From: Nitrospirales bacterium
Lineage (GTDB): Bacteria > Nitrospirota > Nitrospiria > Nitrospirales > UBA8639
Direction: 5' to 3'
DNA: 64,000 nt
Assembly (NCBI GenBank): GCA_029261355.1
Contig: JAJDBM010000024.1
Coordinates: forward strand, 124,001-188,000
Shown here in pieces: positions 1 to 46,810 of this stretch. The notes beneath the pieces are model-generated. The model was not told the DNA's origin and made no database searches. It worked only from the letters and a program-made list of their open reading frames with translations. The stretch's first letter is position 1, and each line of letters starts with the position of its first letter. The translations under genes and the position numbers were made by a program.

Positions 1-270
1 AAGAGCAATTGGCTTATTTGCCTCAAAAGCCTCTTGAATGACAACCAATCCCGACATTCCATCATCAACGCATTTCACGTCATACCTTGGAATTTTTGAG
101 GCCGAAAGGGTATCACCGAAGAGAACAGCATTCGTTGCTGAGAGATCCGAAGGAACTCCCTCGTCAGGCATTCTTAATATATGTCGAAAATCTGAATGGA
201 TATCCCGATTGTCATCCACAACCAAAATACGTCGATTCAGTTCTTCGTCAGTATGCATTAGCTCCGACAT
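1..270 (-). CDS. Extended receiver-domain response regulator (partial)
   Basis: Only the first 90 codons are present; the gene runs off the window edge. The start ATG is followed by RRILVVDDNRDIHSDF, the acidic pocket of a receiver domain (Asp19-Asp20). The stretch up to the edge aligns by eye with the N-termini of the 4512-5123 and 1560-3092 products, including the long region between the DD pair and the phosphoacceptor strand. The edge falls a few residues before the expected phosphoacceptor Asp. Whether an output or kinase domain follows cannot be seen. It lies just downstream of, and on the same strand as, another response regulator, so co-transcription is likely. The receiver assignment is secure; the overall architecture is unknown. 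Confidence 0.8.
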   Translation of the reverse strand, partial: MSELMHTDEELNRRILVVDDNRDIHSDFRHILRMPDEGVPSDLSATNAVLFGDTLSASKIPRYDVKCVDDGMSGLVVIQEAFEANKPIAL

Positions 271-318
271 AGGCTCCCATACCATATCTAGTAAAGTTAT
301 CCCCCTCAATAACGGCCT

Positions 319-804
319 CTACTGCAACGAACTCTGATGACCTAACGTTGAGCGTGGAACGGAATTCACTTTCCCTCGATATCGCGTTAATCCCTTCATG
401 AATTCGAGATAGCCATCTAAGCTATTGGGTTTGGTAATAAACGAATGAGCTCCAAGGTTATAGGCGCTATCAATATGTTTAGCCACTCGCGACGTGGTCA
501 GAACCAACACAGGAATATCTTGTAAATTGGGATCCGCTTTAATTTCTACTAACGCAGTACAGCCATCTTTTTTTGGCATGTTCAAGTCTAGTAATATGAC
601 TCCAGGACGAGGGGCCACAGCCGCATCGGCATAGGAGCCATCATGAGTCAGATAGTTCATCAACTCTTCACCGTCATGTACAAATCGTAGCTCCTGACCA
701 AACCGACATTCATCCCAAGCCGCCTGTGCGACCAAACAATCATCGGTGCTGTCATCAGCCATTAACACGACAAATGGAACCGTTTGCATGCAGGTATTCA
801 TCAT
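319..804 (-). CDS. Rcp1-like single-domain response regulator
   Basis: A 161-residue stand-alone receiver. It has the acidic pair in LMADDSTDDC, the phosphoacceptor in VILLDLNMPKKDG, the Thr/Ser of LTTSRV and the Lys of FITKP. The long helix-loop after the DD pair (ELRFVHDGEELMNYL) is typical of Rcp1-type regulators, which receive phosphate from phytochrome-like or PAS kinases and have no DNA-binding domain. The ATG at 804 has an AGGAGGG ribosome-binding site five bases upstream. It is very similar in layout to the 5330-5806 product, so the two are probably paralogues serving the same kinase set. No output domain is present, so it presumably acts by protein contact or phosphate shuttling. Confidence 0.9.
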   Translation of the reverse strand: MMNTCMQTVPFVVLMADDSTDDCLVAQAAWDECRFGQELRFVHDGEELMNYLTHDGSYADAAVAPRPGVILLDLNMPKKDGCTALVEIKADPNLQDIPVLVLTTSRVAKHIDSAYNLGAHSFITKPNSLDGYLEFMKGLTRYRGKVNSVPRSTLGHQSSLQ

Positions 805-1208
805 CTCGCCCTCCTTTATATCTCATTAGGACCCTATGAACCTCATAGCCTCATACACTTCGAATCGCATCATCTATCAACACGCCGTCCTCAAGAATGT
901 CACTCTCCCCCATTCCTTTGAGAATGACCATCCGAATTCTATTCCCTCTCACAACGTTCGAGTGTTCCCACACACAATACGACCACTCGGCCCAGCTTGA
1001 ATGCGAAGAGGTCTTAATGGAAATAATGGGATAAACATGTCAATGGAGTAGAATTTTTGAGAAATCGGTACGCCTACATTGTTCCCAGTCAAAGAGACCA
1101 CATGAATAAGGAACCGTCTTAAAGCGATAGACTGATAAATGAAAAAATCAGGAGGACGGAAAGGTCAAGGCTGAGCAGGTAGGAAACGCGAGAAGCAGAC
1201 GTGAGTCC
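805..1208. other. Gene-free interval downstream of the riboswitch
   Basis: About 400 bases separate the terminator-like hairpin from the start of the response regulator at 804. I see no convincing reading frame on either strand. A minus-strand frame of roughly 70 codons is open between about 950 and 1175 but has no start with a ribosome-binding site and no recognisable motif. It may be decayed coding sequence. The only clear signal is the Shine-Dalgarno of the 804 gene. Confidence 0.5.
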
Positions 1209-1240
1209 AAGAAACACAAACGCCCATCCAAAGATGGGCG
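1209..1240 (-). terminator. Terminator-like hairpin behind the c-di-GMP riboswitch
   Basis: On the minus strand CGCCCATC, a four-base loop and GATGGGCG form a perfect 8-bp GC-rich stem. It is followed by the T-rich tail TTTGTGTTTCTT. It begins about 26 bases after the 3' strand of the riboswitch P1 helix, where the expression platform of a transcriptional riboswitch is expected. No T-run follows on the plus strand, so it is directional. Confidence 0.7.
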
Positions 1241-1266
1241 CAAATCAGACTCAACGCTTCATTTGC

Positions 1267-1366
1267 CAGTGTGGCGGCCAGGCGAACCCCGGGAATAGAA
1301 CTTCCCCAATTCAGGTCCCTAGGCTTTGCGTCCTACCCTCTCAGATAGTTTGCCCTTTGCACCCTG
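1267..1366 (-). promoter_or_regulatory. Cyclic-di-GMP-I (GEMM-I) riboswitch
   Basis: Read on the minus strand, the element has the invariant blocks of the GEMM-I class in order and spacing. They are GCAAAGGGCAAA (around 1359-1349), a P2 stem CTATCT/GGGTAG (1348-1343 with 1338-1333) closed by a GAGA tetraloop (GNRA type), then GACGCAAAGCC (1332-1322). P3 follows with an AGG/CCT base, ACC/GGT pairing and a GGGAA/TTCCC tip. P1 is CAGGGTG (1366-1360) pairing with CACACTG (1273-1267), with one mismatch. The distances from P1 to the core on both sides equal those I recall for the Vibrio cholerae Vc2 aptamer. A possible -10 (TATGAT, 1394-1389) precedes it. A terminator hairpin follows. The nearest downstream gene on this strand is over 400 bases away. 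Confidence 0.85.
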
Positions 1367-1559
1367 TTGTGTCTTTTATCGGCGTCGTATCATATTTCTT
1401 GAGGAAAATACTCCCTAGAATTTCCTTCCCCCAATTATCATAAAACCCTTTGCAATAAGGGGAAATAGGCTGGTCCCAATGTGTGATGCCCCTCATTCCG
1501 ATGAAGAGCTTGTACTGACACGCGACCCAGGCCCAAACCAAACCATTGTATATTGGCCA

Positions 1560-3092
1560 CTACCTGACAATGGGGAATATCGTCTCGGACAAAGCGGTCA
1601 CTGAGTATGTTTCCTCGTCCCAAGAATCATCAAGGGGACACCCCATTGGAAGTGTGACAAGAAAGATAGATCCTTTACCAATTTCACTCTGTACCGTAAT
1701 ATGGCCTCCACACCGTTCGACAATTTTTTTACATACGGCTAACCCAATACCTGTCCCCTCGAACTCATCTCGCCGATGCAATCGTTTAAACATTCCAAAA
1801 ATTCGATCAGCATATTGAGGGTCCATCCCGATTCCTTCATCTTCAATACAGATCTGACACAATTGCTCAGCATGCGTTCCATCTTTATGACGACGTTCCT
1901 TCATTAAACATGCAGACACTCGAACAACGGGAGGCTCGCCAGGTTTATGAAACTTCAAGGCATTGCCAATCAAGTTTTGTAACAATTGCCTTATATGTGT
2001 CGGTGCTGACTCAATCACAGGTAGTTCACCAACCTCTATTCTGGCATAACCTTCCTCGATACGGACGGCAAAATCACTGAGAATATCGTCGACAACTTCT
2101 CGAAGGGCAACCGACTCTGGGGCTCGATCAGGAGTGTCCAATCTGGAATAAATAAGAAGATCTTGAATGAGGCGTTGCATACGACCAGACGCCTTCTGAA
2201 TCCGATCTAAGAAATCGATCCCAGCATCAGAAATGTTTTCACCACATTTAACTCGTAATAAATCACTAAACACTTGAATGGTGTGCAGAGGCTCTTGAAG
2301 GTCATGGGCGGCCACAGAAGCAAATTGGTCTAATTCGTGATTCGAGCGAACGAGTTCTTCAGTTTTATGCCGTAGGGCTAACTCTGCTCGTTCTCGTTCA
2401 TGCACTTCAATCAACGCTTGATCACGCGCCTCACTTAACTCCTGGTTTCGTTGTTCCAAATCTCGTACCGTCTGAGCAAGTTGTGATTCAACTGATTGCC
2501 GACGGAGCACATCATGTGCTAATTGAGCATTCGCCTCACGCAAATCCGCCGTTCGTTGATCCACATATAGTTCTAATGTATTGAGGCGCAGTCTGGCGTG
2601 GCTCTCCCAATGCCATTTATGCATTAACGAGTTCGCTAACTGCTGGACCTCAATGGGATCAAATGGTTTTCGAAGAATCAAAAGTTGATCCCGATGTCCT
2701 AAGCGAGGGATCACCTCACTCCATTCGTGATCCGAAAATGCCGTACAGATCACGGCTTGAATATCAGGATCAATCGCCCACATTCGCTCAATCGTTTCGA
2801 CCCCATCCCAGCCAGGTGGCATACACATATCCACAAAAACCACCGCATACGGCGCTTGCTGCTTGATCGCTTGATCCACCAACTCACAACCAACCGAACC
2901 TTGCTCAGCAAAATCGACAAGAAATGGCTCTTGATGACCCATACCCAATCGATCCGAAAATAATGTTGAACGCGCAACATAAGCCGCAGTCATGTCGATC
3001 GAACAAGATAGCACCTTCCTGTAATCTTCAATGACAGCTGGAGTGTCATCAATGACTAAGATGCGACGATTGAGAAGTGGAATGTCGATCAT
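1560..3092 (-). CDS. Receiver-histidine kinase (extended REC, HisKA, HATPase)
   Basis: The 510-residue protein starts with an extended receiver: DD at 15-16, phosphoacceptor Asp88 in FVDMCMPPGWDG, Lys in ILRKPFD. A coiled coil of roughly residues 165-250 follows. The dimerisation/phosphoacceptor helix is AAHDLQEPLHTI (His near 262), and the ATPase domain has NLIGNALKF (about 375), DEGIGMD (about 420) and GTGIGLAV (about 447). A receiver placed before the kinase domain makes it a phosphate-controlled kinase rather than a membrane sensor; there are no transmembrane segments. Its ATG overlaps the stop of the 3089-4384 gene as ATGA, so the two are translationally coupled. The HDLQEP H-box is of the phytochrome-associated type and matches that of the 5793-7076 kinase. 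Input signal and targets are unknown. Confidence 0.9.
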   Translation of the reverse strand: MIDIPLLNRRILVIDDTPAVIEDYRKVLSCSIDMTAAYVARSTLFSDRLGMGHQEPFLVDFAEQGSVGCELVDQAIKQQAPYAVVFVDMCMPPGWDGVETIERMWAIDPDIQAVICTAFSDHEWSEVIPRLGHRDQLLILRKPFDPIEVQQLANSLMHKWHWESHARLRLNTLELYVDQRTADLREANAQLAHDVLRRQSVESQLAQTVRDLEQRNQELSEARDQALIEVHERERAELALRHKTEELVRSNHELDQFASVAAHDLQEPLHTIQVFSDLLRVKCGENISDAGIDFLDRIQKASGRMQRLIQDLLIYSRLDTPDRAPESVALREVVDDILSDFAVRIEEGYARIEVGELPVIESAPTHIRQLLQNLIGNALKFHKPGEPPVVRVSACLMKERRHKDGTHAEQLCQICIEDEGIGMDPQYADRIFGMFKRLHRRDEFEGTGIGLAVCKKIVERCGGHITVQSEIGKGSIFLVTLPMGCPLDDSWDEETYSVTALSETIFPIVR

Positions 3093-5806: not shown

Positions 5807-7076
5807 TCATCTCTCCTTTGTTGTCGTGAGTTGGTGCATTCAGGCTCAGTCTACTTTCCGGCAATATCACCATCATTTTCGTTCCCAGACCAAGGTGACT
5901 GGTTGCCGAGATCACACCATCGTGACGTTCAACAATCTTCTTACAAATAGCTAAACCAACTCCAGTCCCTTCATACTCATCTTTTCCATGGAGACGCTTA
6001 AACATACCAAAAATTTGCACGGCATATTGCTCCTCAAAACCAACCCCATTATCCTCTACGACAATCTGCCATTGCCTCTCACCGTGATTATATCGGTTTC
6101 CAGTTTCCACTGTCTGTGCAGAAAGAGTGACCCTTGGAGGCTCATCCTTCTTCGCATACTTTAAGGCATTTCCAATGAGGTTTTGGAACAACTGTCGCAT
6201 CTGGAAAGGTTCAGCCTCAATAGTCGGCAATTCAGCGATCGTGACTTGCCCATGAGAAGCTTCTATTCTTCCTTCTAGATCAGTCGCAACTTCCTGGGCA
6301 ATTTGATTGAGATTGACCAATTCAAAAGGCTGAGCCTTTATGGAGACCTGCGAATAGCTCAGGAGGTCAGTGATCAATCGCTGCATGCGCCGAGAGGCGT
6401 TCTGCATACGTTCCAGGTAATCTCGCCCTGCCTCATCTAGCTGGTCGCCATTTTTTAATTTTAACCGATCCCCAAACGTGATCACTTTTCGCAACGGCTC
6501 TTGTAGGTCATGCGAGGCAATAGCCGCAAATTGGACAAGCTCCTGATTCGATCGCTCAAGCTCTTGAGATTGATCAAGTAAAGTGGCCTCTATTCGTTGA
6601 CGTTCCTCAACCTCTTGCAAGGCCAGATCACGAGCTTCTCGATATTCTCGAATACGTAGGGAGAGAGCCGTCACATCCTGAATCACTATCAGCACACAAA
6701 TTCCATTGATTCCCGAAATACGAACGCCTTTCGCGGTCGTGGACTGAACTTGCATGTGTCCATTTGGAAGTTCACACGGAAGCAAATGGGGATGAAGTTG
6801 GGAAGAAAAAATCGTTGGAGGTCCTCCATCGACGATATTCCGAAGACGTCTCGTCACATGATGAATTTGAGAACCTGAAAAGTGCGTCTCCGCTAATGTT
6901 CCAAGTACCACATCACTTGTAAGTCCAGACCAGTCTTGTAACGACCGATTCCAATACAATACCTTGAGCTCCGGCGTAAGAACACAGGCCCCTACAGGAA
7001 CATGATCCAGTAGACTACATTCAGTGAATGCCGGTTCCGACTCTTCTTGAATATTAACTGGTAGGGATGAGTGCAT
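5793..7076 (-). CDS. PAS-domain histidine kinase
   Basis: A soluble kinase of 427 residues. It has a PAS domain at about 20-130 (VGACVLTPELKVLYWNRSL), a coiled-coil linker at about 135-185, an H-box ASHDLQEPLRKV (His near 189), and an ATPase domain with NLIGNALKY, EDNGVGFEE and GTGVGLAI (about 371). The start ATG has GGAGG six bases upstream and lies inside the end of the cheC-like gene, so the genes overlap. The HDLQEP box is that of the kinase family usually paired with Rcp1-type regulators, and such a regulator is encoded immediately downstream. The PAS ligand is unknown; I see no obvious cofactor-binding Cys/His signature. Confidence 0.9.
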   Translation of the reverse strand: MHSSLPVNIQEESEPAFTECSLLDHVPVGACVLTPELKVLYWNRSLQDWSGLTSDVVLGTLAETHFSGSQIHHVTRRLRNIVDGGPPTIFSSQLHPHLLPCELPNGHMQVQSTTAKGVRISGINGICVLIVIQDVTALSLRIREYREARDLALQEVEERQRIEATLLDQSQELERSNQELVQFAAIASHDLQEPLRKVITFGDRLKLKNGDQLDEAGRDYLERMQNASRRMQRLITDLLSYSQVSIKAQPFELVNLNQIAQEVATDLEGRIEASHGQVTIAELPTIEAEPFQMRQLFQNLIGNALKYAKKDEPPRVTLSAQTVETGNRYNHGERQWQIVVEDNGVGFEEQYAVQIFGMFKRLHGKDEYEGTGVGLAICKKIVERHDGVISATSHLGLGTKMMVILPESRLSLNAPTHDNKGEMSEVE

Positions 7077-7647
7077 TCATTGCCTCCAGTAACATGCCAA
7101 ATGAACCGACTTCGAACAAAATATATACCCGACCCTCGAGGTCCATATCCTTTGTTCGAAAACCAGTTTCAGCTAATACACAAATTTTTGAGTCATCTCC
7201 AACTTGCATTTTGAGTAATTCTTCTGGACTACATTCTTGAAAAGATGGAACATTATATTCAATGTGTTCATTTAAGGTATTCGCAATAGCTCCCATGACT
7301 CCGTTCAAGACAATATTGCCAATTTCTGTCAACGTTCCTGTTCGAAGCTCGTCGAGATCCAGTCCCTGGCACTCTTCTCCCGTTAAGGCCATCACCAGCG
7401 TTGAGGCACTTTCCGGAGGAAAGACTAAGGCAGCCATTCCACCGAAGCGTCCCTTGAATCCTTGACATACCGTCGCGCATGAACTGGTCCCTAAGGAATC
7501 CAAATGATGGGGATCGATAATTTCAATATGAGGGACTGACAATTCGAGTGGAGTATGTAGCATTTCATTCATCACTCCAGCCGCCTTCCCGACACCAATG
7601 TTGATTAATTCTTTTAAAATATCTAATTGAAGGGGTGTTAATTCCAT
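7054..7647 (-). CDS. CheC-like CheY-P phosphatase
   Basis: A 197-residue CheC-family protein with the two pseudo-symmetric Glu-Xaa-Xaa-Asn active-site helices: KELINIGVGKAAGVMN near the start and LTEIGNIVLNGVMGAIAN near residue 105. In this family these Glu/Asn pairs dephosphorylate CheY-P. The spacing and the Gly-rich motif after each match CheC rather than CheX, which has one site. It sits between a CheY-like gene (10-base overlap upstream) and a PAS kinase (23-base overlap downstream). Its substrate is therefore probably the adjacent CheY-like protein. No CheA, CheW or MCP gene is in the window, so the module may not control flagella. Confidence 0.88.
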   Translation of the reverse strand: MELTPLQLDILKELINIGVGKAAGVMNEMLHTPLELSVPHIEIIDPHHLDSLGTSSCATVCQGFKGRFGGMAALVFPPESASTLVMALTGEECQGLDLDELRTGTLTEIGNIVLNGVMGAIANTLNEHIEYNVPSFQECSPEELLKMQVGDDSKICVLAETGFRTKDMDLEGRVYILFEVGSFGMLLEAMNALIPTS

Positions 7648-8021
7648 GAAGGGGCCTTTACCGTATCAGCAAGAGCTTGGTGGATCCCAGCTAGCACGGA
7701 TTCGGGCTTCAGTGGTTTATTAAAGAATGCTGTCGCGCCTAATTCTAGACATCGTGTACGGGTGCTTTCTTGCACATCTGCCGTATTAACGATAATTGGA
7801 ATCATGATTCCTTCCGCTCGGACGGCTGCGATAAGATCCTGCCCTTCCATTTCAGGCATATTCAAATCGGTCACTAGGCAATCCGGCTGTTCCGATTTCA
7901 CCTTTTCCAATCCATCTCGGCCATTGACAGCAAGACTCACTTCATGACCCCCATTCTTCACCATGGCACTTAACGTCATGCGCATAAACACAGAATCATC
8001 AACAACAAGAATATTCGCCAT
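7638..8021 (-). CDS. CheY-like response regulator
   Basis: A compact 127-residue receiver: ILVVDDSVFMRMTL, acceptor Asp in CLVTDLNMPEMEG, Thr in VNTADVQ, Lys in FFNKPLKPE. The length and the DDSxxMR motif are those of chemotaxis-type CheY proteins. The ATG has GGAGCGAG seven bases upstream. It appears to be the first gene of the minus-strand signalling chain that runs to about 1.5 kb, since the next 500 bases upstream are gene-free and should hold the promoter. It overlaps the CheC-like gene by ten bases, which strongly suggests a kinase-regulator-phosphatase circuit. Confidence 0.9.
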   Translation of the reverse strand: MANILVVDDSVFMRMTLSAMVKNGGHEVSLAVNGRDGLEKVKSEQPDCLVTDLNMPEMEGQDLIAAVRAEGIMIPIIVNTADVQESTRTRCLELGATAFFNKPLKPESVLAGIHQALADTVKAPSWN

Positions 8022-41588: not shown

Positions 41589-42923
41589 TCAGCTTGACGC
41601 CAGTTGCGTCTCCATCGCGGCTTGTGCATTGCTAGATTCAGGATTGGAGGGGTAGTAGGAGATAATACGACGAGGATTCAAATATTCGCGAACTTCTTGG
41701 GCCAAATCACGTGGACGAATGGCCTCCTTGATCCCGATGTCCTCTTCTCGCGCGAGGTCGAGAATCATCGCTTCTTCTTTAGGAATATCCGGGGAATACA
41801 CCATCACAATAGGACGAAGACGGGCTTCCATATTCACGCTGGTCACCAACCCCATTGCCCCATTTGTCAATGCCACTAACGATCCAGGAGGGTAAACCCC
41901 AAGTTGGCGAATTAATGTCACAACCGCATCATTCCACAAACTCGCCCGTTCTTTGGTATAGAGTAGAGAAAGTGCCTCGGATGGCGTGAGAGACCTCAGA
42001 GGATCTGGGTGGTTACACATCTCATCGTACGCATCCGCAACCATGACTATTTTAGCATACTGGGTAATCCCGCCTTCTTTAAGACCAGAGGGATATCCAG
42101 TACCATTCAGCCGTTCATGATGCTGCAAAACAATATCTAAGCATTCATGAGGAAATGCGGGATAAGAGGCTAAAGTATCCTTCCCATACCGCGGGTGTTT
42201 TTTTAATATGGCTTTCGTTTCAGCTGAAGTCGATGTGGTTTTTTTGAGTAGCATTTCACCAGAGTATTTTAGTTCACCAATATCATGGAGCATAGCCCCC
42301 ATCGCGAGCTTTTCAATTTCATGCCGCTTGAGACCGAGATCCCGGGCAATCAAAATTGAAAGTGTACACACGTTCAGCGAATGGAGAAGAAATTCATCTC
42401 CAGAATCATTGGAGCCCATTAAATTCATGAGTGCGCGAGAAGAATCGTTGTCGACCAAAATGTCATTCAGTGACCCGATCATTTTTTTGGCCGTGATCAG
42501 ACCACGAGGCGAACCAGAACTGAGGTCCTGCAACATCACTTTCCCCTCGCGCAGCACATCCTTGTATTCCGCCTCAACCTTCCGCAACTGTTCCTGATAA
42601 TTCCGATAATCTTGTTGCAATTCGAACTTGTGTTGAACAAGTTCCTCTTGTTCCGCCGCCGCTGCATCTAAATCCCCTGGGGCACCCTCTTCGCTCTCCG
42701 ACAAACCATCTCCTCCGTCTCCTTCTCCCTCAGCTCCTTCAGGATCTGATTTCTCGGGATCGTAGAGAATCTTGACTCTTTTCAGTCCACGTAGAGTTTC
42801 CAATTCCTTTGGGAATCTGACTTTGAACGTATTCGTCGGAAATGGATGACTAAACCAAGATCCTTCGAGCTTGAGATACAACCCAATCCGTAACTCTTTC
42901 GCTGTAATTTCCTCAAAAGCCAT
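41589..42923 (-). CDS. HD-GYP cyclic-di-GMP phosphodiesterase with DUF3391
   Basis: I choose the ATG at 42923 (GGGAG ten bases upstream) over a TTG three codons earlier. The N-terminal DUF3391 domain is EITAKELRIGLYLKLEGSWFS. An acidic linker (EGEGDGGDGLSESEEG) and a coiled coil follow. The HD-GYP domain has the HD pair in MLHDIGELKYSGEML, HH in LQHHERLNGTGYPSG (GYP intact) and KIVMVADAYDEM. The metal-binding residues needed to hydrolyse c-di-GMP appear complete. The usual second Lys-rich motif is kept (KHPRYGKDTL). It is expected to be an active phosphodiesterase. The pentapeptide-repeat gene lies 67 bases upstream on the same strand. Confidence 0.92.
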   Translation of the reverse strand: MAFEEITAKELRIGLYLKLEGSWFSHPFPTNTFKVRFPKELETLRGLKRVKILYDPEKSDPEGAEGEGDGGDGLSESEEGAPGDLDAAAAEQEELVQHKFELQQDYRNYQEQLRKVEAEYKDVLREGKVMLQDLSSGSPRGLITAKKMIGSLNDILVDNDSSRALMNLMGSNDSGDEFLLHSLNVCTLSILIARDLGLKRHEIEKLAMGAMLHDIGELKYSGEMLLKKTTSTSAETKAILKKHPRYGKDTLASYPAFPHECLDIVLQHHERLNGTGYPSGLKEGGITQYAKIVMVADAYDEMCNHPDPLRSLTPSEALSLLYTKERASLWNDAVVTLIRQLGVYPPGSLVALTNGAMGLVTSVNMEARLRPIVMVYSPDIPKEEAMILDLAREEDIGIKEAIRPRDLAQEVREYLNPRRIISYYPSNPESSNAQAAMETQLASS

Positions 42924-45715: not shown

Positions 45716-46810
45716 TTAGGCATTGTATACTGGGATAGGCTCACTCACCCGCACATCGATATACGTACGATGCACTTCGAGCATCAAGGGAAGCATGTCT
45801 TCAAAGAGTTGTACTAACTGAGGATCAAGGTGACCGCCAGCTAATCCACGAATATGTTCCGTCGCTTTCTCAATTGCCCAGGCTTCTTTATAAGGCCGTT
45901 GGGATGTTAAGGCATCAAAAATATCACAAACCGCACAGATTCTCCCGGGTAATGGGATATCCTCCCCTGAGAGTTTATTGGGATACCCTGAGCCATCCCA
46001 TTTTTCATGATGTGTAAGCGCGATGATTTCGGCCATTTGCAACAGTGCGGACTCACTACCTGACAATAATTCGGCCCCAATCACCGTGTGCCGACGCATC
46101 GTGAGCCACTCTTCATCCGTTAATTTATCCGGCTTCAAGAGAATTTCATCGGGAATACCAATCTTGCCAATATCGTGCATGGGCATGGCCTGTTGAATCA
46201 ATCGACATTCATCCTCGTCCATTCCCGCGGCTTGCGCCAAAATCGCCGCATAGTGACTCATACGAACAATATGGGCTCCGGTATCATTGTCCCGATACTC
46301 AGCCGCCCGGCCTAAGCGATGAATAACTTCTCGTTGCGTATCTTCCAATGCTTTGGTTCTGGTCGACACCGTCTCTTCTAACATTTCCATTTGCTGTACA
46401 TTTTCTTTATGAAGTAGCCCGGTCTCCAGCAAATTACGAATCCGCATGAGCACTTCGACTTTATCAAATGGCTTATTCAGAAAGTCCTTTGCACCGGATT
46501 CGAGTGCACGCAATCGAGTGCCACGATCTTCTTCGGACGTCAGCACAAGAATAGGTAGAAACGGTCGCTTATTCACGACTTTTAACTGCCCCATGACCTG
46601 AAACCCATCAACCTCAGGCATGCGTATATCTAAACAAATTAAATCCGGATTGATCTCTCGGTATAACTTCACCACTTCTGTGGAATCCGTTGTACTATGA
46701 ATATTGGTATATCCAGAAGCCTGCAGGATATTCTCCAACAGCATGATATTTGTCATTTGATCATCGACAATCAAGATGGCTGCTTTTTGACATTGAAGTT
46801 GAGAAATCAT
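45716..46810 (-). CDS. RpfG-like response regulator with HD-GYP output
   Basis: The 364-residue protein joins a receiver (ILIVDDQMTNIMLLENIL; acceptor Asp61 in LICLDIRMPEVDG; Lys in FLNKPFDKVEV) to an HD-GYP domain. The HD-GYP part begins with VIHRLGRAAEYRDNDTGAHI, then MPMHDIGKIGIPDEILLKP, HHEKWDGSGYPNKL and ICAVCDIFDALTSQRPYK. All motifs of an active c-di-GMP phosphodiesterase, including GYP, are intact. In Xanthomonas RpfG this layout couples phosphorylation to c-di-GMP breakdown. The upstream gap of 272 bases leads to the hybrid kinase (47083-50088), a candidate phosphate donor. Confidence 0.95.
   Translation of the reverse strand: MISQLQCQKAAILIVDDQMTNIMLLENILQASGYTNIHSTTDSTEVVKLYREINPDLICLDIRMPEVDGFQVMGQLKVVNKRPFLPILVLTSEEDRGTRLRALESGAKDFLNKPFDKVEVLMRIRNLLETGLLHKENVQQMEMLEETVSTRTKALEDTQREVIHRLGRAAEYRDNDTGAHIVRMSHYAAILAQAAGMDEDECRLIQQAMPMHDIGKIGIPDEILLKPDKLTDEEWLTMRRHTVIGAELLSGSESALLQMAEIIALTHHEKWDGSGYPNKLSGEDIPLPGRICAVCDIFDALTSQRPYKEAWAIEKATEHIRGLAGGHLDPQLVQLFEDMLPLMLEVHRTYIDVRVSEPIPVYNA

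Follow-up and report, generated by a model that had tools for sequence, protein, structure and literature searches.

What does a riboswitch control when no gene stands close behind it? In the Nitrospirales bacterium considered here, a c-di-GMP-I riboswitch with its own terminator lies on the minus strand of a 64,000-nucleotide stretch of DNA (hereafter the window; GenBank assembly GCA_029261355.1, contig JAJDBM010000024.1, positions 124,001 to 188,000), and the original prediction had pointed out that no gene occurs within 400 bases of it. Indeed, the nearest gene start on the same strand is at position 804, 465 nt downstream of the aptamer. Two explanations had been offered, namely a long leader through which the riboswitch controls a distant pair of response regulators, or an orphan whose gene has decayed. 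The elements of the locus, observed and predicted, are listed below in the direction of transcription.

1560-3092, minus strand: receiver-HisKA-HATPase histidine kinase gene, an upstream synteny marker kept in the genus (from synteny and domains)
1376-1402, minus strand: putative sigma28/FliA-type promoter, TCAAG-AAATATGATACGACG-CCGATAA (-35, -10), from a pattern match; kept in 10 of 10 loci of its class and also found before flagellin
1270-1364, minus strand: c-di-GMP-I (GEMM-I) aptamer, full length (Rfam RF01051, 51.4 bits)
1353-1364, minus strand: candidate antiterminator strand GGGUGCAAAGGG in P1/J1-2, which pairs with the terminator 5' arm (mean pairing 0.64, truncated transcript)
1267-1273, minus strand: 3' strand of P1, CACACUG, whose partner is 1366-1360; seen in the sequence and kept in 5 of 5 genus members
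1236-1244, minus strand: 5' arm region of the terminator, UUUGCGCCC, computed to pair with the antiterminator strand
1220-1241, minus strand: intrinsic terminator hairpin of 9 bp (6 G-C) with the T-rich tail TTGTGTTT (hairpin -15.4 kcal/mol)
805-1219, minus strand: long unconserved leader, with a Shine-Dalgarno sequence, AAAGGAGGGCG, at 817-807 (sequence scan and comparison)
319-804, minus strand: receiver-only response regulator of 161 aa, the probable regulated gene (PF00072, 50 bits; synteny)
1-309, minus strand, running off the window: next gene of the probable operon, a 664 aa PAS/HATPase histidine kinase with an N-terminal receiver-like part (from sequence)

The riboswitch itself is real. 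Rfam cmscan of the whole window against all families returned a full-length RF01051 match at 1364-1270 on the minus strand, spanning model positions 1-87, with a score of 51.4 bits (E 3.9e-7) against a gathering score of 35. The GEMM-I features that had been recognized from the letters were also located: the core, GGACGCAAAG, occupies 1333-1324, the P2 loop is GAGA, and P1 is formed by CAGGGUG (1366-1360) and CACACUG (1273-1267) with one G.A mismatch. The GC hairpin with a T-rich tail corresponds to a nine-pair terminator stem at 1241-1220, which reads GCGCCCATC-TTTG-GATGGGCGT followed by TTGTGTTT. Six c-di-GMP-I riboswitches are present in the source genome (4.63 Mb, 74 contigs), and the window element is a member of an ordinary riboswitch class in a rather interesting setting. 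The two HD-GYP proteins noted in the window are likewise present, as HD-GYP-type domains (PF13487) near 41952-42371 and 45815-46294, and a CheC/CheX-type phosphatase and a CheY-like protein are encoded at 7054-8021 (minus strand) within the same-strand signalling cluster.

Correct in its riboswitch call, the original prediction did not recognize the sigma28-type promoter, the pairing that could act as antiterminator, or the possible genome-wide circuit, all of which are described below. The promoter box, TCAAG-N15-CCGATAA, lies directly upstream of P1; it was first noticed by eye and tested afterwards. It is close to the FliA consensus reported for Bdellovibrio, TTAAG-N16-CCGATA (PMC3627812). 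Its -35 and -10 elements stand at the right spacing and are conserved, the box being found in 10 of the 10 loci of the window's riboswitch class (five of which, being members of one genus, are not independent) and in none of the 20 sigma-gene-class loci. The flagellin gene of the source genome carries a matching box 151 nt before its start codon, and a strict pattern, TMAAGTTT-N10..12-CCGATAA, has just two matches in the entire genome of 4.63 Mb, each directly upstream of a c-di-GMP-I riboswitch. A loose sigma28 pattern produced 45 matches genome-wide versus 30 in a reversed control and was rejected as a diagnostic by itself, riboswitch proximity and conservation being needed in addition.

Of 120 riboswitches in the relatives, 43 have a box within 100 nt by a strict regular expression, which had no match on the reverse strand and 14 matches in 220 kb of downstream sequence. 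Another 15 matches, 100-300 nt upstream of riboswitches, may belong to tandem or longer leaders. In a separate set of 115 GTDB loci, 68 have T[ACT]AAG spaced 15 or 16 from the -10 box, and no other single spacing is seen more than twice; these loci were chosen for a CCGATA before the c-di-GMP-I core, so that the figure shows that the two boxes pair and does not give the frequency of the box. In the GTDB loci (L129-L246), sigma28-type promoters were seen to precede c-di-GMP-I riboswitches in Rubrobacter, Desulfobacterales, Armatimonadota, Atribacteria, Thiobacillus, Nitrospira and others. In the window, we infer that the promoter at 1402-1376 is read by a sigma28-family factor.

The gene that such a transcript would reach is suggested by comparison with relatives. 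The order of kinase gene, riboswitch, gap and receiver-only regulator is found in all five genus genomes (the window and four others); in the four others, the receiver gene lies 402-588 nt behind the aptamer and its protein is ~82% identical. A related receiver gene also stands behind a c-di-GMP-I riboswitch at five loci in three other genera, at a distance of 175-220 nt in four of these and of ~120 nt in G018. Between the window copy and the other genus members, the aptamer is 79-87% identical and the receiver gene 68-71%, as against 28-39% for the gap, which is close to unalignable (25-39% over all pairs with the window copy or that of G001). Because the gene order is kept in the genus, because versions with a short gap exist elsewhere, and because aptamer and gene are far more similar than the gap, it appears that the riboswitch-receiver pair has been kept and that the leader is longer in the window's genus. 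As for the downstream pair of response regulators originally named, the first is indeed a receiver-only regulator (319-804), and the second is in fact the PAS/HATPase histidine kinase with an N-terminal receiver-like part.

The gap was scanned for a sigma70-type promoter on both strands and for a sigma28 box on the gene strand, with no match in either case, and a second promoter within it was discarded as a candidate. Small open reading frames in the gap were likewise set aside as a conserved product, for they are present in each genome but are unlike one another, except in the near-identical G002 and G004. Given its length and its lack of conservation, the gap may still hide a separate promoter for the regulator, one that escaped these scans.

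The long leader is favored over an orphan because the receiver gene is syntenic, because no promoter was found in the gap, and because there is a precedent: the Cd1 riboswitch of the Clostridioides difficile flgB operon resides in a 496-nt 5'UTR (PMC7438776). With this precedent, the long leader at least is not the oddity that both original explanations had been taken to be. We consider it probable that the element is a transcriptional c-di-GMP-I riboswitch with the layout of Cd1, an OFF switch, heading the long 5' leader of the receiver gene. The CheC/CheX-type phosphatase and CheY-like protein encoded nearby are in keeping with it.

A stand-alone, sigma28-driven aptamer RNA is an unlikely alternative, in which the ~150 nt product would serve as a c-di-GMP sink or a trans regulator and the receiver gene would have its own promoter. 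The terminator directly behind the aptamer and the 465-nt gap devoid of conserved sequence are in keeping with it, as is merRNA of Bdellovibrio bacteriovorus, a massively expressed c-di-GMP riboswitch RNA without a nearby gene, from a species whose FliA regulon is large (PMC3627812). However, merRNA is 445 nt long, has no conserved downstream ORF and bears no FliA promoter mark in the table of that paper, whereas the window locus is syntenic with the receiver gene in 5 of 5 genus members, riboswitches of the same class occur 0.1-0.2 kb before related receiver genes elsewhere, and the gap yielded neither a sigma70 box on either strand nor a sigma28 box on the gene strand.

If the riboswitch does govern the receiver gene from a long leader, the direction in which it switches is suggested by the terminator. 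This lies at 1241-1220, clear of the aptamer and P1, which end at 1267. When pairing was computed on a transcript cut inside the terminator loop, the terminator arm paired with P1/J1-2 with a mean value of 0.64; when the complete RNA was folded, the terminator hairpin formed. Across the 13 loci that carry a terminator, substantial pairing of arm and aptamer was computed for the truncated transcripts of 12, the window included; the exception is the riboswitch copy before the sigma gene of the source genome. In the window, as in G002 and G004, the arm pairs with P1/J1-2; in other classes, its partner is mostly the P2 3' strand and core. In duplex energies, the pairing with the P2 3' strand and core exceeds nearly all of 500 arm shuffles in 9 of the 13 loci. 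As a universal antiterminator, this latter pairing was rejected: although it performs well in the majority of the other classes, it does not outdo shuffles in the window copy, and P1/J1-2 is superior there. Swapping arms and aptamers between loci gave a weak indication of specificity (p = 0.03) among sequences that are related.

In known systems, Cd1 is an OFF switch in which an antiterminator destroys the aptamer, and pilM is an ON switch in which the terminator overlaps the aptamer (PMC9262584). Because the window terminator is clear of the aptamer as in Cd1, and its arm is predicted to pair with the aptamer, OFF is the likelier direction. The opposite direction, in which c-di-GMP would block termination and high levels of it would turn the regulator on, seems rather improbable: some GEMM-I riboswitches are ON switches, as is the cGAMP sensor pilM of Geobacter (GEMM-Ib; PMC9262584), which shares the aptamer fold, but the pilM terminator uses the aptamer's own strand, while in the window terminator and aptamer are separate and the arm competes with the aptamer. 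The specificity position of pilM also differs. The window locus resembles Cd1 in its c-di-GMP-I aptamer, separate downstream terminator, predicted aptamer-dismantling antiterminator, long leader and motility context, and differs in its sigma28-type promoter (that of flgB is SigA), in its target, a receiver-only response regulator, and in the strands of the antiterminator.

That the riboswitch has lost its gene and is drifting, the second of the original explanations, is very doubtful. Its score is the lowest of the genome's six (51.4 bits), and the copy in G003 (L039, G003:C5:117704-117798) has lost the terminator U-tract, carries aptamer substitutions, scores 45.9 bits and may be losing function. 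Against decay of the window copy stand the identities given above, with the aptamer better conserved than the regulator gene and both far above the gap, and the promoter box, which is kept in all genus members. The changes in the G003 copy, together with the different hairpin of the G001 copy, also count against the long-leader OFF switch. At L054, L064, L101 and L107, c-di-GMP-I riboswitches come in same-strand pairs with a spacing of ~3 kb; a long ORF follows each member, and the repeated units look like local duplications.

With regard to the ligand, the position before GC-AAA, which we mapped ourselves as the specificity position, is a G in the window copy, and this G presumably favors c-di-GMP. 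With core and specificity G present, the aptamer is presumed to bind c-di-GMP. In some relatives, A or C replaces this G (L091, at G016:C32:206704, of the same class; L049 and L067 in G004; and other loci), and ligand preference may thus vary within one riboswitch class. Such relatives speak for a 3',3'-cGAMP sensor of the GEMM-Ib type, a reading that its G makes most improbable for the window copy itself.

Aptamer, terminator, promoter motif, conserved gene order and the potential for pairing are results of computation; from them we infer how ligand binding, switching direction, read-through to the receiver gene and the acting sigma would fit together in the long-leader OFF switch. A sigma28-family RNA polymerase would start near 1369, just before P1. 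At high c-di-GMP, the aptamer would fold and bind its ligand, leaving the terminator 5' arm free to form the hairpin at 1241-1220, and transcription would stop after ~150 nt. At low c-di-GMP, the arm, UUUGCGCCC, would pair with the aptamer 5' strand, GGGUGCAAAGGG, no terminator would form, and transcription would continue for ~400 nt into the receiver-only regulator (804-319) and the kinase behind it. Production of the regulator would thereby require both an active flagellar sigma programme and a low level of c-di-GMP.

The source genome offers further riboswitch targets, named by inspection of the sequences rather than by family search: an operon of a response regulator and a kinase, a putative secreted repeat protein, and a small protein encoded ahead of a zwf-like gene. 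At another locus (L123, G000:C5:114471-114550, minus strand), a sigma28-type box and a c-di-GMP-I riboswitch head a 552-nt leader before a tandem Flp-pilin-like gene array, so named on the same basis. Of two FliA/WhiG-type genes above the family cut-off, one, a sigma paralogue, stands directly behind a c-di-GMP-I riboswitch (L126:2127-3008, minus strand, equal to G000:C61:192126-193007; 198.8 bits versus a cut-off of 189.6). In 22 family genomes, its orthologues are set apart as a group by their scores, and a riboswitch precedes the gene in 21 of the 22 (the case of G035 rests on a contig break; G008 is without one). Riboswitch and paralogue co-occur in 22 of 23 riboswitch-bearing family genomes versus 0 of 14 without (Fisher p = 2e-9), a statistic confounded by phylogeny because most of the 14 riboswitch-free genomes are from one genus. 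It is conceivable, and we propose it tentatively, that in the window's Nitrospirales family this riboswitch-controlled paralogue transcribes the sigma28-type promoters of further c-di-GMP-I riboswitches, that of the window included. As a necessary reader of boxed promoters in general the paralogue is unlikely, because the box is also present at Nitrospira loci from another family, whose sampled genomes contain no match at paralogue-level scores.

Viewed in isolation, the window element adds another long-leader example to the known c-di-GMP-I riboswitches; its broader context carries more weight. In the open-access literature searched, with most subscription papers outside its scope, we found no prior statement of a link between sigma28 boxes and these riboswitches, or of a riboswitch-controlled sigma28 paralogue. 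In Streptomyces, c-di-GMP reaches WhiG via the anti-sigma factor RsiG; a riboswitch-controlled sigma28 paralogue would put a sigma factor under direct c-di-GMP control by RNA. Sigma28-type promoters before c-di-GMP-I riboswitches in many phyla would join motility transcription and c-di-GMP sensing, often in one transcript, and the layered circuit, if true, would mean that the same c-di-GMP signal is read twice in series, as a feed-forward gate.
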